NCBI GenBank assembly: GCA_005809105.1
Contig: SYLI01000008.1
Span: 1-39,709 of the forward strand
Length of the DNA stretch: 39,709 bases
From: Verrucomicrobiales bacterium
GTDB lineage: Bacteria > Verrucomicrobiota > Verrucomicrobiia > Limisphaerales > UBA1100
Reading direction: 5' to 3'
Position numbers and translations under genes: made by a program. The notes under the pieces are model-generated. The model worked only from the letters and a program-made list of their open reading frames with translations, had not been told where the DNA came from and did not search any database. Positions 12,926 through 25,122 of the stretch are shown here, one piece after another. Within the stretch, counting starts at the first letter, position 1. Every line of letters starts with the position of its first letter.

Positions 12926-14275
12926 ATGAACAAACACAGTGCGTTTCAGTGGTGTGGCGGTGCGGATCATGCGGGAAATCCCAACCGGCGCGATTTCCTC
13001 TATGTGGGTGCGCTGGGCGGTCTCGGGTTGACGCTGGGTGATCTCTTCAAGCATCAGGCGCGGGCTGCGGGCGAGGACTGGAAGGACGTCGCCAAGGCCT
13101 CCAAGGAAGGCAAGGCCAAGAGCGTCATCCAGATCTTCATGCCGGGCGGTTCGGCCCATCAGGAGTCGTGGGATCCCAAGCATCTGGCGCCGCAGGAATA
13201 CCGTGGCCCGCTGGGCACGGTGGCCACCACCATCCCGGGGGAATACTTCTCCGAGAACATGAAGCTGACGGCCAAGGTGGCCAACAAGATCACCGTCATC
13301 CGGTCCATGACCCATGGCGAGGCTGCGCACGAGCGCGGCACGCACAACATGATGACGGGCGTGCGGCCCAGCCCGGCGGTGGTGTTTCCCGGCATGGGCA
13401 GCATCGTCAGCCACGAATTTGGACCGCGCAAGAACCTGCCCCCGTACGTGGCCATCCCCTCGATGCTCGGCTACGGCGGCACGGGCTACTTGGGAAGTGC
13501 GTTCGGTCCGTTCAGCCTCGGGGCCGATCCGGGCAACGGCGGCTTCAAGGTGCGCGATCTGGCGCTGCCCAGCGGCATCACCGACAAACGCTTTGACACC
13601 CGCAAGAACATGCGGGCCGTGGTGGACTCGCACTTCAGCGCGCTGGAAAAGGCCGACACGCTGGTGGGCATGGACACGTTTTATGAGCGCGCCTACTCGC
13701 TCGTCAGCTCTGATGCGGCGCGGGCGGCGTTTGACATTGAACAGGAACCGGCCGCCCTGCGCGACGAATACGGGCGCAACACCGCCGGCGGGCGCTTCCT
13801 TCTGGCCCGGCGCCTTGTGGAGGCCGGAGTGCGGTTTGTGTCCACCAGCTACGGCGGCTGGGATCACCACAGCAACATCGCCGGTGCCAACGGCGGCCAG
13901 ATGCCCGCGTTTGACCAGGCGTTTGCCGCGCTGATCAATGACCTGGATCGCCGCGGGCTGCTGGAGAGCACGCTGGTGATTGTGAACAGCGAATTTGGCC
14001 GCACTCCGAAGATCAACCGCGACGCAGGCCGCGACCACTGGCCCAAGGTGTTCAGTGTGGCGATGGCCGGTGGCGGCATGAAGCGCGGTTACATTCATGG
14101 AGCTTCCGATCCGACGGGTGCGGAGCCTGACGAAGATCCCGTGAGCGTCGAGGATTGGGCGTCTACGGTGTATTCGCTGATTGGCATCGACCCGATGCGG
14201 CGCCTGCTCGGACCAGGCAACCGGCCCATGCCGATCAACTACGACGGCCAGGTGCTCAAGGACGCGCTGGCGTAG
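12926..14275 (+). CDS. Tat-exported DUF1501 protein (alkaline-phosphatase/sulfatase-like fold)
   Basis: This encodes 449 residues. The N-terminus carries a twin-arginine signal (NRRDFLYVGALGGLGLTLGDL, residues about 20-40), then the DUF1501 hallmarks: KSVIQIFMPGGSAHQESWDPK, MTHGEAAHERGTHNMMTG, YGGWDHHSN and VIVNSEFGRTPKIN. The family belongs to the alkaline-phosphatase-like superfamily and is very abundant in Planctomycetes and Verrucomicrobia, usually next to DUF1549/DUF1553 genes; its biochemical role is not settled. Here it leads a four-gene plus-strand cluster, but a strong hairpin separates it from the next gene. The sequence GGAAGG (about 12904) is 16 bases before ATG, too far to be a firm ribosome site. 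Confidence 0.93.
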   Translation: MNKHSAFQWCGGADHAGNPNRRDFLYVGALGGLGLTLGDLFKHQARAAGEDWKDVAKASKEGKAKSVIQIFMPGGSAHQESWDPKHLAPQEYRGPLGTVATTIPGEYFSENMKLTAKVANKITVIRSMTHGEAAHERGTHNMMTGVRPSPAVVFPGMGSIVSHEFGPRKNLPPYVAIPSMLGYGGTGYLGSAFGPFSLGADPGNGGFKVRDLALPSGITDKRFDTRKNMRAVVDSHFSALEKADTLVGMDTFYERAYSLVSSDAARAAFDIEQEPAALRDEYGRNTAGGRFLLARRLVEAGVRFVSTSYGGWDHHSNIAGANGGQMPAFDQAFAALINDLDRRGLLESTLVIVNSEFGRTPKINRDAGRDHWPKVFSVAMAGGGMKRGYIHGASDPTGAEPDEDPVSVEDWASTVYSLIGIDPMRRLLGPGNRPMPINYDGQVLKDALA

Positions 14276-14372: not shown

Positions 14373-16775
14373 ATGAAGAGGCTAATTGCAGGGGTTGCCG
14401 TGCTGGCAGGCGCAGGACTGGCGTGGGCGGTGGATCCGCGGCTGGGTGCCATCACCCCCAAAGGAGTCCAGGCCGGAACCGAGGTGGTGCTGACGTTTAG
14501 TGGTCAGCGTCTGGACGACGCCAAGGGGCTGATTTTCTACCGGCCCGGATTCCAGGTGGTCGCGCTGGAGGAAGTGAAGGAGAACTTCGTGCGCGCGAAG
14601 GTTCAAATCGCCGCCAACTGCCCGCTGGGAGAGCACCATGTGCGAGTGCGAACCGCCGGCGGGGTGACGGAACTTCGCACGTTTTTCGTCGGCCCCTTCC
14701 CCATCGTGGCGAAGGTGGCCCCCAAACCCGGCGAGGGCCTGCAGGTGCTGCCCATCAACTGTACCGTGATGGGCTCGGTGCCGGGCGAGTCGGTGGACCG
14801 CTATATCATCAAGGCAAAGAAAGACCAGCGCGTGTCGGCCGAGGTCGAATGCATGCGTCTGGGACAGGGTTTTTACGATCCGCACGTTGCCATCATCACT
14901 CCGAAGGGATTCGTGCTGGCGCGGTCGGATGACACGCCGCTGTTCGTTCAGGATTGTTTCGCCTCCGCCAAAATTCCCGAGGACGGTGATTACACGGTGG
15001 AGGTGCGCGAAACCAGCTATGGGCCGCTGGGGATGTACCGGCTGCATGTGGGTGCGTTCGCGCGCCCGACGGCCGTGTATCCGGCGGGCGGCCCCTCGGG
15101 CCAGGATTTGACGGTGCGGTTCATCGACAAGGCCACGGGCGACTTTCAGGAGACCTTGAAGCTCCTCGCGCCAGACTCCTGCCAGCTCACCGACGGCCGC
15201 ATGGAGCAGCCGGGCTTGAACGACTCCGGAGCCTTCGCGGCGCGCGATGGCGTCATTGCCCCATCTTGGAACCGGCTGCGGATTTCCAACTTTCCCAATG
15301 CCCTGGAGGTGGAGCCCAACGACGCCGTGGGCAACGCCACCGTGGTGGCCGGCGATTTGCCCATGGCGTTTAACGGCATCATCGAGAAGCCCGGCGACGT
15401 TGATTGGTTCACCTTCAAGGGCAAGGCCGGTCAGCAGTACGACGTGCATGTCTACGCACGGCGGCTGAGGTCGGGCTTGGACTCGGTGCTCAACATCGGC
15501 AACGCCGCCGGCGGCGGCATCACCGGCAACGACGACTCCGGCGGGCCCGACAGCTACGTGCGCTTTGGCGTGCCGGCCGATGGCAACTACACCCTTCGCA
15601 TCACCGACCATCTGGGCGCCGGCGGCCCGGACTTTGTGTACCGCGTGGAATTCCAGCCCGTGGCGCCCAGCCTCTCGGTTTACGTGCCGGATGTCTCGCT
15701 GTATGACACGCAGACGCGCAAGTCGGTCGTGGTGGCGCGTGGCAACCGGTTCCCGCTGGTTCTCAATGCGCGCCGCGGCAACTTCGGCGGCGAACTCAAA
15801 CTGGCTGCCAAAGACTTCCCCCCGGGCGTCACCCTCAGCGCCGCTCCCATGGCGGCCAACCAGAGCACGCTCACGATGGTGTTTGAGGCCGCGGCCGACG
15901 CGCCAGTGGGTGGCGGGCTGGGCAACCTGGTGGCCTCGCTGGTGCCTCCCACCAATGCACCGCCCACCACCTCCATCCTCACGGGAAGCATCTGGCAGAA
16001 CTTCGACCTCGTGCAGCGAGGCAATCAGGGCGTGGACTACCGCACCTGGGCCGACCGCATCGCCGTGGCGGTGGTGGATGAGTTGCCCTTCAAGATTCGC
16101 GTGGAGCCCATTCGCGCGCCGCTCGTGCGCAATGGGACGCTGCCCGTCAGGATCATCGCCGAGCGCACGGGCGACTTCAAGGGGGCCATCAACGTCCAGA
16201 TGCTCACCCGCCCGCCGGGCCTCAACTGTCCTTCGTCCATTGACATTCCCGCCGACCAGACCTCGGGCAGCTACAACTTCAGCGCCGAGGCCGGCGCCGA
16301 GGTGAAGCTGCATCAGATCGCGATGCTGGGATCCAGCGGCGTGAAGGGCGGCAACGCCTACGTGTCCACCCAGCTCGCGGACTTGAACATCCAGGATCAG
16401 TTTGTCACCGGCAACATGCCCATCGCCACGACGATCCAGGGCTATCCGACGCTGGTGAAATGCGAGCTCGCCCAGAAGGTGGAATTCGCCGGCAAGGCCA
16501 GGGTGGAACTCCTGGGACTGCCCGCCGGCGCCACCACGCAGCCGGTGGAGATGACCAAGGACACCAAGGAGCTCATCTTTTCCATCGTCACCACGCCCGA
16601 CGCGCGCGTGGGTCTGCACCGCACGCTGCTCTGCCAGATGACCGTGACCTTCAACGACACCCAGCTTACTCAGACGTTCGGAGAACGCGGCACGCTGCGC
16701 ATCGATCCGCCGCCGCCGCCGCCGCAACCCCGCAAGCCGGTGGACACCGGCGTTGCGCCCAAGCCCGCAGAATAG
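14373..16775 (+). CDS. Large secreted protein with pre-peptidase C-terminal (PPC) domains
   Basis: This encodes 800 residues with a signal peptide ending near residue 19 (GAGLAWA|VDP). An IPT/Ig-like region follows (about 20-110: ITPKGVQAGTEVVLTFSGQRLDD). A first PPC-like domain spans about 125-228 (VDRYIIKAKKDQRVSAEVEC, then EDGDYTVEVRE). A clear second one lies at about 309-430 (ALEVEPNDAVGNAT, GDVDWFTFKGKAGQQYDVHV, DGNYTLRITDH). Two or three further Ig-like beta regions follow, and the C-terminus is a PPPPPPQPRKP tail. No protease motif is visible. PPC domains are secreted beta-sandwiches. Proteins of this type commonly sit with DUF1549/DUF1553 genes in Planctomycetes and Verrucomicrobia, as here (30 bases upstream of one). 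I infer a binding or scaffold role. Confidence 0.87.
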   Translation: MKRLIAGVAVLAGAGLAWAVDPRLGAITPKGVQAGTEVVLTFSGQRLDDAKGLIFYRPGFQVVALEEVKENFVRAKVQIAANCPLGEHHVRVRTAGGVTELRTFFVGPFPIVAKVAPKPGEGLQVLPINCTVMGSVPGESVDRYIIKAKKDQRVSAEVECMRLGQGFYDPHVAIITPKGFVLARSDDTPLFVQDCFASAKIPEDGDYTVEVRETSYGPLGMYRLHVGAFARPTAVYPAGGPSGQDLTVRFIDKATGDFQETLKLLAPDSCQLTDGRMEQPGLNDSGAFAARDGVIAPSWNRLRISNFPNALEVEPNDAVGNATVVAGDLPMAFNGIIEKPGDVDWFTFKGKAGQQYDVHVYARRLRSGLDSVLNIGNAAGGGITGNDDSGGPDSYVRFGVPADGNYTLRITDHLGAGGPDFVYRVEFQPVAPSLSVYVPDVSLYDTQTRKSVVVARGNRFPLVLNARRGNFGGELKLAAKDFPPGVTLSAAPMAANQSTLTMVFEAAADAPVGGGLGNLVASLVPPTNAPPTTSILTGSIWQNFDLVQRGNQGVDYRTWADRIAVAVVDELPFKIRVEPIRAPLVRNGTLPVRIIAERTGDFKGAINVQMLTRPPGLNCPSSIDIPADQTSGSYNFSAEAGAEVKLHQIAMLGSSGVKGGNAYVSTQLADLNIQDQFVTGNMPIATTIQGYPTLVKCELAQKVEFAGKARVELLGLPAGATTQPVEMTKDTKELIFSIVTTPDARVGLHRTLLCQMTVTFNDTQLTQTFGERGTLRIDPPPPPPQPRKPVDTGVAPKPAE

Positions 16776-16805: not shown

Positions 16806-19229
16806 ATGAAACTGCAATGGATGATCCTCTGGGCCGCCGCGCCATTATGCGCGCTGGCCGCACCGCAGACGCTGGTGGACGTGCAGGTGTACCCGCCCAA
16901 GGCGCACCTGACGACCAGCCGCGACTTTCAGGCGCTCATTGTTCAGGCCAAGTATTCGGACAGCACCACGCGAGATGTCACCCTCCAGACCAAGTTCACG
17001 CTGGCCAGCCCCGCGACGGCAAAGTTGGAGGGCAACGTCGTGCGGCCCCTGGCCGATGGCGAGACGTCCATCAAGCTGGAGTTTGAGGGGCGCGCACTCA
17101 CGGTTCCCGTGAAGGTGGAGAAGGCTGCGGTGGATCGCCCCGTCAGCTTTCTTCAGGATGTGATGCCCGTGTTCACCAAGGCCGGATGCAATGCCGGAAG
17201 CTGCCACGGCTCGACGCGCGGCAAGGATGGATTCAAGCTCTCGCTCTTTGGCTTTAATCCCCCGAGCGACTACTTCCAGCTCACCCGCGAGAACGTCGGC
17301 CGGCGCATCAATCTTGCGCTGCCCCATGATAGTTTGATCCTCGAGAAGGCCACGGGCCGCGTGACGCACACGGGCGGCAAACTCTTTGATGCAGAGAGCG
17401 GGCTCTACAAGACGATCCTGCGCTGGCTGGAGGCAGGTGCCCCCAACGATCCGGCGGACATCCCCAAGGTGGTGGATGTCGAGGTGCGACCGCTTCAGGC
17501 GGTGATGGAGGGGGCCGGCGCGCAGCAGCAGTTGGTGGTGCGCGCCATCTATTCCGACGGCACCGATCGCGATGTCACGGCCGAGACCCAGTTTATTTCC
17601 AACAACAACATGGCCGCCAAGGCGACGGGCACGGGAATGGTGACTTCAGGCGAGCGCGGCGAGGCCTTCATCCTCGCGCGGTACGACCAGTTCACCGTGG
17701 GCACGCAAATCCTCTCCATACCCAAGGACCCGACGTACGCTTTCCCCGCCGAGCCGGAGGCCAACTACATCGATGGCTTGGTGTACAACAAGCACAAGAA
17801 GATCCGCATCACGCCCAGCGGGATTTGCGATGACGGCACGTTCATACGCCGCATCCACCTCGACATCATTGGCAAGCTGCCCGATCAGGCCACGGTGGAG
17901 CAATTTGCGGCCGACAAGTCCCCCGACAAGCGTGCCCGGCTCATCGAAGAACTTCTGGCGCGGCCGGAGTTCGTGCGCATCTGGGTGATGAAATGGGCGG
18001 AGCTGCTGCAGATCCGGACCGACAACAACCAGTTCCAGTACAAGAATGCGGTGCTCTACTTTGAATGGCTGCGCGGCCAGTTTGAAGCCAACCGGCCGAT
18101 GAACGAGATCGTGCAGGAGCTGCTCGGGGCGCGCGGCGGCACCTTCTCCAACCCCGCCGGCAACTTTTACCAGATTGAGCGCGACACGCTCAAGCTCACC
18201 GAGAACGCCGTCCAGATCTTCATGGGAATGCGCATTCAGTGCGCGCAGTGCCACAACCACCCGTTCGACCGGTGGACGATGGACGACTACTACTCGTTCG
18301 CCAATTTCTTCTCGCAGGTCGGCCGCAAGGGCGGCGAAGATAACCGCGAAATCATCATCTACAACTCGGGTGGCGGCGCGGTCACTCATCCCGTGGGAAA
18401 CCGTGTCCTGCCCCCCAAGTTTCTGGGTGGGGCCGTGCCCGATGTTCAGGGCAAGGACCGCCGCGAATTGCTGGCCAAGTGGCTGGCCTCGCCGGAGAAC
18501 CCGTTCTTTGCCAGGAACCTGGCAAACATTGTCTGGGCGCATTTCCTGGGCAAGGGCATCGTCGAGCCGGTGGATGATGTGCGCATCAGCAACCCGCCAT
18601 CCAACCCCGAGCTGCTGGACGAACTGGGCAAGCGCTTTCAGCAATCCAACTACAATTTCAAGCAGCTCGTGCGGGAGATCTGCAATTCCCGCACCTATCA
18701 GCGCACGGTGCAGTCCAATCCCTCCAACATCGAGGACGGCAGCAATTTCTCGAAGGCGTCTGTGCGGCGCATGCGGGCCGAGGTGCTTCTGGATGTCATC
18801 ACGCAGGTGACGGACACAAAGAACAAATTCCCCGGACTGCCGCTGGGTTCCAGCGCGGCCGAGATCGTGGACGGTCGCACGAGCACGTTCTTCCTCACGA
18901 CCTTCGGCCGGGCGACCCGGGACACGGTCTGTTCGTGCGAGGTGGCGCTGGAGCCCAACCTCTCGCAGGCCTTGCACCTGCTCAACGGCGACATTGTCAA
19001 CGACCGGTGCGTGGAGGGCGGCGTGGTGGCCAAGTTGCTGCAAGCCAAGAAGACGCCCGAGGAGATCCTCGACACCCTCTATGTACGCTGCCTGGCGCGC
19101 AAGCCCAACGAGGGGGAGAAGGCGCGGCTTCTGGAGTTTCTCAAGGAACCCGGCCGCACCCCGCAGGAAGTGTTGAACGACGTTTTTTGGGCGGTGTTGA
19201 ATTCCAAGGAATTCATCTTCAATCACTAG
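16806..19229 (+). CDS. Secreted DUF1549/DUF1553 protein with heme-type CxxCH motifs (PSCyt2/PSD1)
   Basis: This encodes 807 residues with a signal peptide (MKLQWMILWAAAPLCALA|APQ). An Ig-like region (20-110) precedes CNAGSCH (about 128-134), a CX4CH motif that could bind heme c. A second Ig-like stretch follows. The DUF1549 region (about 318-530) begins YIDGLVYNKHKK and has FIRRIHLDIIGKLPD; it contains CAQCHNHPFDRW (about residue 478), a CxxCH motif conserved in the family. The DUF1553 region (about 550-795) has RRELLAKWLASPENPFFARN, PSNPELLDELG, REICNSRTYQRT and LFLLNGDIV-type blocks (LHLLNGDIVNDR). The family is exported and of uncertain function, and is proposed to act in oxidative or polymer-degrading systems. 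The gene sits between the PPC and PSCyt1-WD40 genes on the same strand. Confidence 0.92.
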   Translation: MKLQWMILWAAAPLCALAAPQTLVDVQVYPPKAHLTTSRDFQALIVQAKYSDSTTRDVTLQTKFTLASPATAKLEGNVVRPLADGETSIKLEFEGRALTVPVKVEKAAVDRPVSFLQDVMPVFTKAGCNAGSCHGSTRGKDGFKLSLFGFNPPSDYFQLTRENVGRRINLALPHDSLILEKATGRVTHTGGKLFDAESGLYKTILRWLEAGAPNDPADIPKVVDVEVRPLQAVMEGAGAQQQLVVRAIYSDGTDRDVTAETQFISNNNMAAKATGTGMVTSGERGEAFILARYDQFTVGTQILSIPKDPTYAFPAEPEANYIDGLVYNKHKKIRITPSGICDDGTFIRRIHLDIIGKLPDQATVEQFAADKSPDKRARLIEELLARPEFVRIWVMKWAELLQIRTDNNQFQYKNAVLYFEWLRGQFEANRPMNEIVQELLGARGGTFSNPAGNFYQIERDTLKLTENAVQIFMGMRIQCAQCHNHPFDRWTMDDYYSFANFFSQVGRKGGEDNREIIIYNSGGGAVTHPVGNRVLPPKFLGGAVPDVQGKDRRELLAKWLASPENPFFARNLANIVWAHFLGKGIVEPVDDVRISNPPSNPELLDELGKRFQQSNYNFKQLVREICNSRTYQRTVQSNPSNIEDGSNFSKASVRRMRAEVLLDVITQVTDTKNKFPGLPLGSSAAEIVDGRTSTFFLTTFGRATRDTVCSCEVALEPNLSQALHLLNGDIVNDRCVEGGVVAKLLQAKKTPEEILDTLYVRCLARKPNEGEKARLLEFLKEPGRTPQEVLNDVFWAVLNSKEFIFNH

Positions 19230-19293: not shown

Positions 19294-22200
19294 ATGAGAC
19301 CAATCGCACACTTGTGGGGGATGGCGCTGGCAGCGCTTGGAGTCATGGCGTTGCCTGCGGCCGACAAGACGACGTTTGACGACCAGGTGTTGCCCATTTT
19401 CCGCAACAAGTGTCTCAAGTGCCACAATCCGGACCGGATGAGGGCCGATCTGGATCTCTCCACATTCGATGCGGCCTTGAAGGGCAGCGGCAATGGAGCG
19501 GTGTTGGCCAGTGGCGATCCCAATGGCAGCAAGCTGCTCAAGGTGGTGACCCACGAGGAGAAGCCCACCATGCCGCCGGATGACAAGCTGCCGGCAGCCG
19601 AGATCGAGGTCATCCGCCAGTGGATTGCCGGGGGGCTGCTGCAAAATTCCGGCAGCAAAGCCATCTCGGCCAGCAAGCCCAAGGTCAACCTGGTGGTGGA
19701 TGCCAATGCCACGGGCCGCCCCGCAGGGCCGCCGCCCATGCCCGACCACGTGCTGGCACTCGATCCCTACGTGCGCACCGTCCGTACCAGCGTGGCCACG
19801 GCCATGGCGCACAACCCGTGGTCGCCGATCGTGGCCATCGGCGGCCAGCGTCAGGTGCTTCTGTTTAACACCGACACCCTGCGCGTGGCGGGCATCATCC
19901 CCTTTCCCGACGGCTATCCCAACTGCGTGCGGTTCAGCGCGAATGGGCGGCTGCTCATCATTGGGGGCGGGCGCGGCGCCAACAAAGGCATCTCCACCGT
20001 CTGGGACATCACCACCGGAGTGCAGGTGCTGACGGTCGGCGACGACCTCGACGCCGTGCTCTCCACCGACATCTCCCCCAATCAGCGGTTCATCGCCCAC
20101 GGTGGGCCCGACCGGCTGGTCCGGATTTTTTCGACGGAGACCGGCGAGCTGGTTCACAAGATCAAGAAGCACACCGACTGGATCACGTCGGTCCGCTTCA
20201 GCGTGGACAGCAAGCACGTGGCCACGGGCGACCGCGGCGGCGGCCTGCATGTGTGGGAGGTCGAGCCCGGGCAGATTGTCGGCACCCTTCCCGGCCACAC
20301 CGACCGCATCACCGGCCTGGAATGGGCCACCACCAACATCGTGGCCTCCGCCAGCATGGATTCCACGGCGCGCCTTTGGAACACCGACACGATTTCGCAG
20401 GTGGGCAACTGGGGCGCACACGGCGCCGGCGCCATGTCACTGGCGCGCGCGCCCTCGGGCCAGCTCGTCACCTCAGGCGGCAACAACCGCGCGACGCTCT
20501 GGAATCCGGGTGGTGCCCGCGTCATGGACTTTGTGTTCCCCGGTGAGATGCCCGCGCAGGCCGCCCTTTCCCACGACAGCAGGCGCGTCGTCGGAAGTGA
20601 CTGGTCGGGTCTTGTGTATGTGTGGAATGCGGCCGACGGCAAGGAAGTCGGGCGCCTGACCACCAATCCTGAGACGCAGGCTGAACAACTGGTTCTGGTG
20701 ATCAAGGCCCGGGAGGACAAGCAAGCGGCGGCCACGGCCGCACAGGCCGCCCTCAAGGCCGCCCAGGATCAGGTTGCGGCAGCGCAGGCGCGAATGGCGG
20801 CGCTCGATGCCGCCGTTGCGGCGCAGCAGAAATCCGTGGCCGATGCCAAGGCCAACATCGACAAGGCCGTCACGGGCAAACAAAAGCCCGCGCAGGACAA
20901 TGCGGCCGCCGCAACCAAGGCGCTCACCGACGGCCAAACCGCAAAAACGGCCGCTGACCAGGCCTTGACGACTGCGAACGCGGTGGTGACCACCGCGGCG
21001 CAAGCTCATCAGGTTGCGGCACAGGCCGCGGCCACCAGCGCCAAACTCGCGACGGACGCCCAGAATGACGCGGCCAAGCCCCCGGCTGAAAAACAAAAAC
21101 TCGCCGCAGACGCCGCCGCGAAGAAGGAGGCTGAAGTGGCCGCCAAAGCCGCTTGGGACAAGCTCAAGACCGATCAGCAGGTGCCTGCCCAAAACAAGGC
21201 GGCCGCCGCCGCAAAGGCGCTCGCCGACGCGCTGGCAGCCAAGACCGAAATGGACAAGCTGCTCGTGGCTGCCAACACCGAAGTGCAGGCTGCCGATGTG
21301 GTTTTCAAGGCGGCCCAAAAGAGCCTTGCAGATGCGCAGCAAGCCGCCCAGACGGGCAAGCCGGTGGCTTTGCAACAGGTGGATGCGCTCACCAAACAAA
21401 TGCCCGACTTGCAGAACAAGTCAGCAGGCGCTGCCGCTGAACTCGTGTCGGCGCAGGAGGCCGTGGTCATGACCGAGCTGGGGAAGGGCTTCAGCCAGTT
21501 TTACAACTTGCGGCGCGAGACCGAAGATCAAAAGGCCCGGGCCGATCAGTCCCAAGCCGCCAGCCAGGCCGCGCAAGCAGCCTTGCAGTCGGCGCGTTTG
21601 GCTCTCGCGACGGCGAAGGGATTGAATGTGGACGCCCTCAAGGCCCAGCGCGCCGAGGGCATCAAGAAGGCGCAGACAGAGCAGGCTACGGCCGGCCAGG
21701 ATCTTGCGGTGGTTTCCGTGGAGGTGGCCAAGGCAAACACGGCCATCGCCGAAGCCACCAAGTCGGCGTCGGATGCAGAAGCGACCCTCAAGACCGCCGC
21801 CGCCAACATGGAGAGCGCCAAGGCGTCGATGCAGAAGGCCGCTGCCGCAGCGAAGGCCGCCCGCGACAAGGCAACGGCTGAGAAGGCGGTGCAGGACAAG
21901 TTCGCGGCCGAGAAACACGCACCTGCAATGGCCGCGTTGGATGGTGCAACCAAAGCCATGATCAAGGTTGCCGCAGACAAGGCGGCGGGGGACAAAGTGT
22001 TGGCCGGCGCCACGGCTGAAGCCGCGGGAGCCGCGGTCGCATTCCAGTTTGCAGACAAGGCCGCCCAGGCTTCGGAGGCGGCTGTTGCCGCGGGAAAGGC
22101 CGAAGCGCAGGCGGTCTTGGCCGAACTAAACAAGCTGCTCAACGAAGCGAAGGCGGAGCACGCGCGCCAGGTGGCCGCAAAGGCCGACAATGCAACCTTG

Positions 22201-22920
22201 GAAACACTGGCCAACGAAACCATCAAGCCCGTCGAGGCAGCGTTGGTGAAGCTCACCGCGGGATGGGCGGCCCAGCAGGGCCTTGCGGCCAGTCAACGTG
22301 ACGCCGCGGTTGCCGCCAAGGTGTTAAACGAAAAAAAGACCGCCGGAAAAACCGCGGCGACGACCGCGGCGAACGCCGCGGCGGCAACGCTGGCCACGGC
22401 GACCGCCGCCCGGGAAGCCGCGGCAAAGTCGGCAGCCCAGATGACCGCCGAGTTGGGCGAGTTTTCAAAACGTCATCAAGCGGCTGACCAATCAGCCAAG
22501 ACAGCCGAAGCGGCGGTGCCTCCGGCCGAGGCCGAGCTTGCCCGGATGGTGGCCGCGGCCGGTGTGTCCAAATCAGCGGCAGACGCATCGAACCTGAAGC
22601 TTGCGACGGCGAAGGCGGCGATGGCCAAGGTGGTTTCCGAAAAGCAGCAGCCTGCGGAATCGCGGGTGGCCGCGGCAAAGCAGGCTCTCGCCGACGCGCA
22701 GCTTTCCCACCAGAACACCGAGGCAGATCATGCAGCGAATCTGGTGTCACTGGCCAAAGCCGAACAGGCGGGGGCGACAGTGGCCTCGGAGAAGGCCGCG
22801 CAGGCTGCCCAGCTGGCCCGTGATCTTGCGGCAATCCAAGCGCGCTTGGCCGAAGTGAAGGCAGCGTACGACAAGCTCAAGTCCGCGATCAGTGCGCCGA
22901 AGTCGGCTGCAACCAAGTGA
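19294..22920 (+). CDS. PSCyt1 cytochrome c plus WD40 repeats plus giant Ala-rich helical tail
   Basis: This encodes 1208 residues. A signal peptide (MRPIAHLWGMALAALGVMALPAA) is followed by a planctomycete cytochrome c domain: VLPIFRNKCLKCHNPDRMR, with CLKCH heme motif at about residue 40, and EEKPTMPPDD near residue 90. WD40-type blades follow (about 160-455; for example ITSVRFSVDSKHVATGDRGG, GLHVWEVEPGQ, ASASMDSTARLWNTD). From about 460 to the end, roughly 745 residues are extremely Ala/Lys/Gln/Asp-rich and nearly all helix-favouring, with quasi-repeats such as KQKPAQDNAAAATKAL (527), QVPAQNKAAAAAKAL (627) and KQQPAESRVAAAKQAL (1116). The ATG at 19294 starts the signal peptide; GGAGG at 19276-19280 is 13 bases away. 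The tail may be a long coiled coil or a periplasm-spanning rod (inference). Confidence 0.9.
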   Translation: MRPIAHLWGMALAALGVMALPAADKTTFDDQVLPIFRNKCLKCHNPDRMRADLDLSTFDAALKGSGNGAVLASGDPNGSKLLKVVTHEEKPTMPPDDKLPAAEIEVIRQWIAGGLLQNSGSKAISASKPKVNLVVDANATGRPAGPPPMPDHVLALDPYVRTVRTSVATAMAHNPWSPIVAIGGQRQVLLFNTDTLRVAGIIPFPDGYPNCVRFSANGRLLIIGGGRGANKGISTVWDITTGVQVLTVGDDLDAVLSTDISPNQRFIAHGGPDRLVRIFSTETGELVHKIKKHTDWITSVRFSVDSKHVATGDRGGGLHVWEVEPGQIVGTLPGHTDRITGLEWATTNIVASASMDSTARLWNTDTISQVGNWGAHGAGAMSLARAPSGQLVTSGGNNRATLWNPGGARVMDFVFPGEMPAQAALSHDSRRVVGSDWSGLVYVWNAADGKEVGRLTTNPETQAEQLVLVIKAREDKQAAATAAQAALKAAQDQVAAAQARMAALDAAVAAQQKSVADAKANIDKAVTGKQKPAQDNAAAATKALTDGQTAKTAADQALTTANAVVTTAAQAHQVAAQAAATSAKLATDAQNDAAKPPAEKQKLAADAAAKKEAEVAAKAAWDKLKTDQQVPAQNKAAAAAKALADALAAKTEMDKLLVAANTEVQAADVVFKAAQKSLADAQQAAQTGKPVALQQVDALTKQMPDLQNKSAGAAAELVSAQEAVVMTELGKGFSQFYNLRRETEDQKARADQSQAASQAAQAALQSARLALATAKGLNVDALKAQRAEGIKKAQTEQATAGQDLAVVSVEVAKANTAIAEATKSASDAEATLKTAAANMESAKASMQKAAAAAKAARDKATAEKAVQDKFAAEKHAPAMAALDGATKAMIKVAADKAAGDKVLAGATAEAAGAAVAFQFADKAAQASEAAVAAGKAEAQAVLAELNKLLNEAKAEHARQVAAKADNATLETLANETIKPVEAALVKLTAGWAAQQGLAASQRDAAVAAKVLNEKKTAGKTAATTAANAAAATLATATAAREAAAKSAAQMTAELGEFSKRHQAADQSAKTAEAAVPPAEAELARMVAAAGVSKSAADASNLKLATAKAAMAKVVSEKQQPAESRVAAAKQALADAQLSHQNTEADHAANLVSLAKAEQAGATVASEKAAQAAQLARDLAAIQARLAEVKAAYDKLKSAISAPKSAATK

Positions 22921-24339: not shown

Positions 24340-25122
24340 CTAGGGTTCGGAGAGGATCTGCTGCCGCTTCTGGTAGTAATCGCGCGCCGTGATTTTGTCG
24401 GCAAGGTACTCATTCACCAGATCGGCGAGCCGCTGCTCGCGGGTCTTCACCGTCGTGTCAGGCTGCCGAGCGCGCACGGCATTGGAGAAATCCACAACCT
24501 TTCGCAGCGCCAGCTGCTTGCTCACCTCCCGATCCGCCAGTTGTGCTGCGCTCAGCGCCGGCGCGTCCAAATTCACCGGGGCGGCGATCTTGGCAAGAAG
24601 TAGATCCGTGTCGGGGGCCATGTGCTGCGCGTACGTCATGGGTTGGCCGTCCTTGAGAGCCGGCAGGCCAATCCAATCGTCCACGGGCTGGCCGGCTTCA
24701 CCCAACGCCTTCTGCCTTGCGGCGCGCAATGACTGTTCTCGAAATTGCGGCAACTCGACGCCAAGCTCCTTGAGGGCCGCCGCGACCATGCGGTTCTCGG
24801 CATCGCGTTGCTGCTGCAACAGGGCCGCGATGGCCTTGGTTTCCACCAGGGTCCTCGCCTTCTCGCGCTCTGAATCGACACGCGCCGCGGTGGCACGGGC
24901 TTCAAGGCGTTGGACGATCTGCCGCTTTTGGGAAGCGGTGGCCACCGCTTCTGCCAGTGCGTCGCGCTGGGCATCGTAGCGCCCCGCCAAGTTCTCAAAG
25001 CTCTGCAGGGGTGCCGGTGCCGGGCCTTGGAGAGGTGTGGTGGGAGCTTCGCCCGCAAGCATGATCTGGCCGAGGGCCCAACTCATGCAGAGAGACGCGT
25101 TAATGAAACGACAGACAACCAA
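24340..25122 (-). CDS. Secreted helical protein of unknown function
   Basis: This encodes 260 residues. The N-terminus (VVCRFINASLCMSWALGQIMLAGEA) resembles a signal peptide. The rest is charged and mostly helical, with a probable coiled coil at residues 43-115 (SFENLAGRYDAQRDALAEAV, then QKRQIVQRLEARATAARVDS) and a C-terminal helical segment (TREQRLADLVNEYLADKITA). No known domain was recognised. The start is TTG at 25122: a perfect AAGGAGG (25138-25132) lies 9 bases upstream, which outweighs a later ATG at 25086. It lies between squalene synthase (57 bases upstream) and lysA on the minus strand, and has its own promoter candidate. Relation to either pathway is not evident. Confidence 0.65.
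   Translation of the reverse strand: MVVCRFINASLCMSWALGQIMLAGEAPTTPLQGPAPAPLQSFENLAGRYDAQRDALAEAVATASQKRQIVQRLEARATAARVDSEREKARTLVETKAIAALLQQQRDAENRMVAAALKELGVELPQFREQSLRAARQKALGEAGQPVDDWIGLPALKDGQPMTYAQHMAPDTDLLLAKIAAPVNLDAPALSAAQLADREVSKQLALRKVVDFSNAVRARQPDTTVKTREQRLADLVNEYLADKITARDYYQKRQQILSEP

Follow-up and report, generated by a model that had tools for sequence, protein, structure and literature searches.

Wandering in-frame repeats of bacteria are known mostly as short palindromic elements. Those of Rickettsia are short palindromes that insert in frame into coding genes and are tolerated at exposed sites. Passages of PMC2996958 describe the Palindromic Amphipathic Repeat Coding ELements (PARCEL) by a 25-residue unit, dyad symmetry in the DNA, and a wide taxonomic spread. 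As for the PSCyt proteins of Planctomycetes-Verrucomicrobia-Chlamydiae (PVC) bacteria, passages of PMC5615132 list WD40 among their domains and state that nothing is known about their function. Here we analyze a 39,709-nucleotide stretch of a Verrucomicrobiales bacterium (contig SYLI01000008.1), called the window, to whose positions all coordinates refer unless another locus is named. One open reading frame (ORF) on its forward strand (19294-22920, from the probable start ATG 19294; the mechanical ORF begins at GTG 19264) encodes a 1208-residue protein, in which a PSCyt1 domain and a WD40 propeller are followed by a 748-residue Ala-rich tail. The reading that we prefer, with a probability of about 0.68, is that the tail consists of tandem copies of a ~99-residue module that is portable: it would form hairpin arms and have spread in frame among exported-type proteins of one verrucomicrobial family.

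A tandem unit in the Ala-rich tail

The tail had been noticed before from the letters of the window alone (the sequence-only reading). The ORF and coordinates given there are right, and Pfam confirms the cytochrome and WD40 parts. The tail was then described as almost entirely Ala, Lys, Gln, Asp, and Glu. The Ala richness stands (Ala 33.7%, Lys 10.0%, Gln 8.4%, Leu 7.0%, Thr 6.3%, Val 6.0%, Glu 5.6%, Asp 5.1%, Gly 2.7%, and Pro 1.6%, or 12 residues), but the wording goes too far, as Leu, Thr, and Val each outnumber both Asp and Glu. Charged residues amount to 23%. Lys or Arg stands four residues before Asp or Glu in 33 pairs, a strong over-representation (z 8.7), and the reverse order, from Asp or Glu to Lys or Arg at i+4, is found in 12 pairs (z 0.7) and is not over-represented. 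The tail gives only two matches in Pfam, both with an E value of 0.1 and below their cut-offs, and nothing below E 1.6 among PDB sequences. The combination of PSCyt1 and WD40 with such a tail, for which the sequence-only reading knew of no named family, is a trait of one verrucomicrobial family and not a singleton.

When the profile of the longest family tail was aligned with itself by hhalign, the off-diagonal score was 215, in contrast to 11.2-16.4 for 20 column-shuffled profiles. Lags of 99 and 246 lead, and those of 296, 345, 394, and 443, near multiples of 49, are also high. Judged by this self-alignment, units of about 99 residues follow one another in tandem along the tail, far beyond chance. 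A hidden Markov model (HMM) of the repeat detects seven stretches in the window protein and eight in its nearest relative (L050); this HMM was trained on tails, and its tail matches are thus partly by construction. The KQ(K/Q)PA quasi-repeats that the sequence-only reading had spotted near residues 527, 627, and 1116 have their Pro at residues 532, 631, and 1120 and turn out to belong to this larger seven-stretch array.

The same architecture was also to be sought in other genomes, and a match to the protein at E ≤ 1e-50 is found in 18 of 20 genomes of the verrucomicrobial family. The complete tails of 13 family members are 673-896 residues long, nine of them within 823-896, and that of a more distant family member (G001) has 524 residues. 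At the level of the order, the head occurs at E ≤ 1e-70 in 59 of 293 genomes, in frames of about 470 to 1383 residues, and tails without a clear unit are common. A gap of ~150 residues, or 1.5 units, separates the window tail from its sister in L050, and a gap of ~150 residues also separates the tails of L096 and L057 from L054-type relatives; on the tree, these two cases fall in different lineages. In the tree of the heads (68 sequences), a tail is missing from each of the 26 Planctomycetota rows and from one Kiritimatiellota row, and long tails (≥ 400 residues) require at least 6 changes. Because of the tail-less Planctomycetota rows and these changes, the helical tail is, as mapped on the head tree, a mostly verrucomicrobial trait whose length has been altered repeatedly. 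By the NG86 method, the ratio of nonsynonymous to synonymous substitution rates (dN/dS) is about 0.22 for the tail and 0.16 for the head; on this estimate, which is rough at a tail dS of 1.5, the tail is kept under constraint.

Two other accounts were rejected. Where the tail is absent, the coil might have been encoded by a gene of its own downstream, but at the seven Planctomycetota and Kiritimatiellota loci inspected, none of the first one to three long ORFs downstream is Ala-rich. An assembly artifact does not agree with the presence of orthologous tails in many separate metagenome-assembled genomes.

The unit in other proteins

The main new finding, which goes beyond the sequence-only reading, is that, as detected by profile searches, the unit also resides in other proteins. 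With an HMM derived from the tail only, the ten chosen carriers all score 16.3-57.1 bits, and the 210 control sequences, obtained by reversal or by shuffling in blocks of 15 residues, do not exceed 3.3 bits. Genome searches with alignments of the unit locate it in 18/20 family genomes (E ≤ 1e-6), in 7/146 genomes of the order (six of the same family and G079 of another family), and in 2/288 genomes of the phylum sample, namely the window's own genome and G670. In the class sample, which was searched with the whole tail, 3/286 genomes matched, all of the same family. The unit was not found in plasmids by tblastn, which is weak evidence with the low-complexity filter on, and of 31 stretches in viral contigs that fit a pattern, none was confirmed as the unit. 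It was found in none of the 21 genomes behind the Planctomycetota, Akkermansiaceae, and Kiritimatiellota loci, in a search without a positive control. Literature searches in one library gave no description of such a tail or module.

A second PSCyt1-WD40 protein in the window's own genome (L103:5686-9627, reverse strand, contig C20) and its family relatives carry Ala-rich stretches between the WD40 repeats, and the best stretch scores 12.6-55.1 bits with the unit in each of nine proteins. The carriers in the window's own genome are the tail, this paralogue, and a PA14 protein on contig C14. Those in another genome (G008) are the tail, a PPC protein, the WD40 paralogue, a PSD1 protein, and a small protein. 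In both genomes, the same repeat is thus present in unrelated ORFs. The very Ala-rich protein of G670, which belongs to another family of the phylum, contains several unit-like stretches, the best with 50.6 bits in the tail-only HMM; it is possibly a source or a parallel array.

If the coil were a convergent low-complexity sequence, the resemblance of the carriers would be merely compositional. Ala-rich tails without a clear unit did arise elsewhere in the order, and the long tails require the changes mentioned above. However, locally shuffled carriers of the same composition give at most 3.3-4.4 bits versus 16-89 bits, the KQKPA-type motif is found at corresponding places, and some copies share 82-88% of their DNA: two units within one PPC gene are 87.7% identical over 236 nt, and a PPC-gene unit and the insert of the small protein on another contig are 82% identical over 141 nt. 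Moreover, several tails outside the main family clade are Ala-rich and none has a clear unit; the best of those tested reaches 23.3 bits (G001) and the next 17.6 bits, and the top one (L102) comes from the same family, in another genus. Convergence is therefore disfavored for the strong carriers and, as a general account, very improbable; two weaker matches, the PA14 protein (20.7 bits) and the PSD1 insert (16.3 bits), may still be convergent.

The PSD1, PPC, and WD40 carriers of a second cluster are neighbors in G008 (L196), as would suit an ordinary duplication of a domain within a single cluster, with gene conversion between neighboring genes afterward and no further mobility. This account does not readily reach the units on other contigs, that is, the window tail, the PA14 protein on C14, and the copies in the small protein on C296 of G006 and C26 of G008, and we consider it quite unlikely.

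Insert lengths and the hairpin reading

The second-cluster PSD1 proteins of G008, G003, and G002 have 121 residues between two conserved motifs, and those of G000, G009, G018, G014, and G016 have 48-49 residues at the same interval. The surplus of 72-73 residues, present in three genomes and absent from the five orthologues, holds a KQKPAQ-type motif. Similarly, the module is in frame in the G006 small protein and absent from its G007 relative, the flanks of the two being 80% and 90% identical. The copy of the small protein in G008 (L211:1770-2051, reverse strand, contig C26) has a frame broken relative to the G006 copy, by decay or assembly error.

In PPC proteins of ten genomes, the insert between the same two conserved motifs has 76 (three genomes), 90 (two), 188 (two), 189, 207, or 386 residues. 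The step from 90 to 189 corresponds to one unit (~49 residues per leg) and that from 188 to 386 to two units. A tip-like motif lies near the center in seven of the ten inserts, starting at residue 34 of 76 (two genomes), 43 and 42 of 90, 89 of 188 (two genomes), and 90 of 189. The NDAAKPPAEK motif in the window tail resembles the KKPAEK motifs at the center of some of these inserts. A chain that exits a folded domain and comes back into it, with a tip halfway along, would most simply be a hairpin.

The tail was modeled twice with AlphaFold2, once with 24 sequences (predicted local distance difference test, pLDDT, 75.4; predicted template modeling score, pTM, 0.48) and once as the tail alone with 12 sequences (pLDDT 75.7, pTM 0.32). 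Both runs give helix almost throughout the tail, in about six long helices. With a mean pLDDT of about 75 and a 3.5-residue period of the tail hydrophobics (z 5.0; z 1.9 for a 3.67-residue period), the earlier expectation of helix rather than disorder is borne out. Helix breaks common to both runs are at about residues 592-596, 776-778, 963-965, and 1074, two of them at Pro-Pro, and breaks near 720-731 and 822-838 appear in a single run each. The heptad register over the six predicted helices has z scores of 1.6-4.2 and is weak for two of them (1.6 and 1.8). In the tail-only model, the legs flanking NDAAKPPAEK would be about 130 and 123 residues. Structure searches with the tail (Foldseek and VIA) give weak matches, mostly to long coiled coils, among them PrgA and the arms of SMC; families missing from these lists are not thereby excluded.

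A single helix or coiled coil of about 100 nm had been proposed in the sequence-only reading. As a rigid rod or parallel coiled coil, the tail would act as a spacer or fiber, and 748 helical residues would extend to ~112 nm at 0.15 nm per residue, in keeping with two models that are almost all helix. The helix holds. The single 100-nm helix is less likely, because the inserts of the tail unit inside folded domains must return and because tips lie in the middle of most PPC inserts. The four reproducible breaks also speak against the rod, as does the share of charged residues, just 23%, which is low for a stable single helix. We regard a rod of this kind as improbable; the module probably folds as an antiparallel hairpin of helices and gains length unit by unit.

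The module reading can be worded as follows. The module would be Ala-rich and helical; it would carry a KQKPA motif, and some copies would also have an (N/D)xxKKPAEK tip. Modules would build antiparallel coiled-coil hairpin arms, some 20-30 nm long, which would grow and shrink by units or half-units (~49 residues, 7 heptads). In this verrucomicrobial family, the module would have spread in frame into several extracytoplasmic-type proteins, mostly of PSCyt gene clusters, with copies moving by recombination or copying of coding DNA within the genome, and the arms may join or space the exported cytochrome-propeller protein and its cluster partners in the periplasm. A bolder form of this reading, which we hold to be doubtful, is that a ~297-bp unit of coding DNA is an element of a new class, copied in frame into unrelated genes of one bacterial family. 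Its self-closing hairpin could enter nearly any loop of an exported protein while sparing the host fold and could grow by whole units, and matching arms would bring the proteins of PSCyt clusters together.

An in-frame repeat that is selfish or neutral, spreading because exposed loops tolerate it and having no function of its own, would fit the unrelated hosts, including a small protein, the varying length, and the Planctomycetota relatives that manage without a tail. The retention of 823-896 residues in nine of the 13 family members and the tail dN/dS of about 0.22 are harder to reconcile with it. We judge such a repeat unlikely; it is the main rival to the pairing of arms described later.

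Several points weigh against the module reading. The antiparallel packing of the tail is what we infer at pTM values of 0.48 and 0.32; AlphaFold2 readily builds helices from Ala-rich sequence, and two helix breaks differ between the runs. No Foldseek match of the tail is at or below E 0.001, and the top VIA match, PrgA, has a Z score of 19.2 yet a root-mean-square deviation (rmsd) of 12.6. The predicted helices (108-184 residues) map poorly onto a half-unit of 49 residues. The PSD1 insert has a low score, the distribution is what favors insertion over loss, and the tail dN/dS is rough, as noted above. Concerning the PPC inserts, no tip-like motif is found in three of the ten (one of 76 residues, the 207, and the 386), the tip patterns were composed after the sequences had been viewed, the KPAEK-type tip is limited to the three inserts of 188-189 residues, and the 207-residue insert is off the steps of 99. 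Finally, the 90-residue PPC insert of the window's own genome has no match to the unit HMM, because of which short PPC hairpins may predate the unit, which would then have lengthened them.

Gene cluster and comparison with known systems

The features are listed in Table 1. The head has a PF07635 score above the gathering score together with a CxxCH motif, which assigns it to PSCyt1. In the AlphaFold2 model, the blocks of the WD40 part mostly have pLDDT values of 82-95, and its Foldseek match to a seven-bladed propeller (7bie_A, TM score by target 0.90) identifies a WD40 propeller. The protein is presumably exported. The window's own genome, a 3.0-Mb draft, yields 42 matches to the query protein at E ≤ 0.001, mostly to the PSCyt1 part; as counted from these matches, its PSCyt repertoire is large.

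Table 1. Features of the window and proteins carrying the unit. Locus counts refer to Verrucomicrobiota and Planctomycetota loci with enough upstream DNA.
Feature	Position	Strand	Basis or remark
DUF1501, cluster gene	12926..14275	+	Pfam PF07394; 18/31 loci with room
PPC-domain protein, cluster gene	14373..16775	+	Pfam PF04151; 35/39 loci with room
PSCyt2-PSD1 (DUF1549/DUF1553), adjoins upstream	16806..19229	+	Pfam; upstream in 41/46 loci with room
Probable Sec signal peptide, residues 1-21	19294..19356	+	M-R-P...ALGVMALPAA, putative
PSCyt1 domain, residues 40-97; heme c motif CLKCH at 40-44	19411..19584	+	Pfam PF07635, E 4.3e-13, 50.1 bits, cut-off 22
WD40 beta-propeller, ~residues 171-456	19804..20661	+	Pfam PF00400, 69.5 bits, cut-off 27
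Ala-rich helical tail, residues 461-1208, 748 aa	20674..22917	+	Composition; AlphaFold2
Repeat unit 1, residues 508-603, KQKPA 529-533	20815..21102	+	Repeat HMM 57.1 bits; genome search 80.9 bits
Hairpin-tip-like motif NDAAKPPAEK, residues 591-600	21064..21093	+	Helix break shared by the two AlphaFold2 models
Repeat unit 2, residues 607-702, QQVPA 628-632	21112..21399	+	Repeat HMM 57.1 bits
Landmark ELGKGFSQFYNLRRE, ~residues 726-745	21469..21528	+	By eye; resembles LKxGQFYxxxYxARE of shorter tails elsewhere
Repeat unit 3, residues 746-849	21529..21840	+	Repeat HMM 33.7 bits
Repeat unit 4, residues 853-948	21850..22137	+	Repeat HMM 50.4 bits
Partial repeat, residues 956-996	22159..22281	+	Repeat HMM 15.7 bits; coincides with 150-residue gap versus L050
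Repeat unit, residues 998-1091	22285..22566	+	Repeat HMM 30.5 bits
Repeat unit, residues 1096-1195, KQQPA 1117-1121	22579..22878	+	Repeat HMM 44.8 bits
Unit carriers, PPC proteins	L196, L210		Genome search
Unit carrier, end of PSD1 protein	L196:1-1026 (G008)		Genome search
Unit carrier, G079 protein	L197		PSCyt2-PSD1-like by eye
Unit carriers, PA14 proteins	L206 (own genome, contig C14); L208		L208 similar by eye
Unit carrier, small protein	L207		No Pfam family above cut-off
Unit carrier, very Ala-rich protein	L209 (G670, contig C26)		Open frame 2025 aa

The landmark between units 2 and 3 was placed by eye. An HMM of LKxGQFYxxxYxARE matches 23 of 40 tails, 13 of these its own seeds, and none of the 13 family tails, in which the landmark rests on inspection by eye.

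The upstream order of DUF1501, PPC, and PSCyt2-PSD1 is widely conserved in Verrucomicrobiota and Planctomycetota. PSCyt1-WD40 and PSCyt2-PSD1 are separate neighboring genes in the window. Joint working of the PSCyt1-WD40 and PSD1 proteins is hinted at, because a 1689-residue ORF elsewhere in the window's own genome (L104:4404-9470, forward strand, contig C93) fuses PSCyt1, WD40, PSCyt2, and PSD1 in one polypeptide. The arms may space or join the proteins of the cluster. Arm-to-arm pairing between cluster partners is attractive, since PSD1, PPC, and WD40 proteins of one G008 cluster bear the same arm; we offer it tentatively, at somewhat less than even odds. Downstream, the window encodes a helical-looking protein with no known family assigned (24340-25122, reverse strand), relatives of which (25-60% identity) are at the same place in most family loci reaching that far.

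If the module reading is true, the unit would show how a proteome can take in copies of a folded module with the host proteins unharmed, and it would amount to a natural kit for loop-borne coiled-coil arms. It would also offer a handle on what might hold together the proteins of the large, uncharacterized PSCyt/DUF1549/DUF1553 clusters.

Among known helical systems, single alpha-helix (SAH) domains have a very high charge and regular E-to-K pairs at i+4. The tail was rejected as an SAH domain, with 23% charged residues and a z score of 0.7 for acidic-to-basic pairs versus 8.7 for basic-to-acidic ones. Group 3 late embryogenesis abundant (LEA) proteins have an 11-residue repeat with a period of 3.67. 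They were rejected as well, with the z score of 1.9 for this period versus 5.0 for 3.5 and with no LEA model among the Pfam matches of the tail. No Pfam TolA model appears in the tail scan to E 10, in which HMMER filters drop weak matches. The arms of SMC, Rad50, and MukB are long and of the folded-back type, and they populate the Foldseek and VIA lists of the tail; unlike them, the window protein has no ATPase head, and the tail has no sequence match to them in Pfam. Enterococcal PrgA (PDB 6z9l), also a long coiled coil, is the top VIA match, with 458 residues aligned, but it is a Gram-positive protein, no sequence kinship with it was found, and the rmsd is large.

The PSCyt1-WD40 proteins of PVC bacteria share the cytochrome domain, whereas no such tail is mentioned in passages of PMC5615132, the main text of which has the word "coiled" 0 times. 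The elements of Rickettsia are alike in their in-frame insertion, and the modules here differ in being long, helical, and in tandem. PARCEL, as described in passages of PMC2996958, is alike in being a tandem amphipathic coding repeat of variable copy number, in occurring in assorted ORFs with membrane-targeting sequences, and in being shuffled within genomes. The unit here differs in its length of ~99 residues, with leading lags of 99 and 246 instead of a 25-residue period, and in being found mostly in one family. DNA folding of two units gave z scores of -0.35 (a unit of L196) and -2.97 (unit 1 of the window), with no consistent dyad symmetry. Because the unit length differs and the dyad symmetry is inconsistent, we do not class the unit as a PARCEL as those passages define it, though it resembles PARCEL in its spread.

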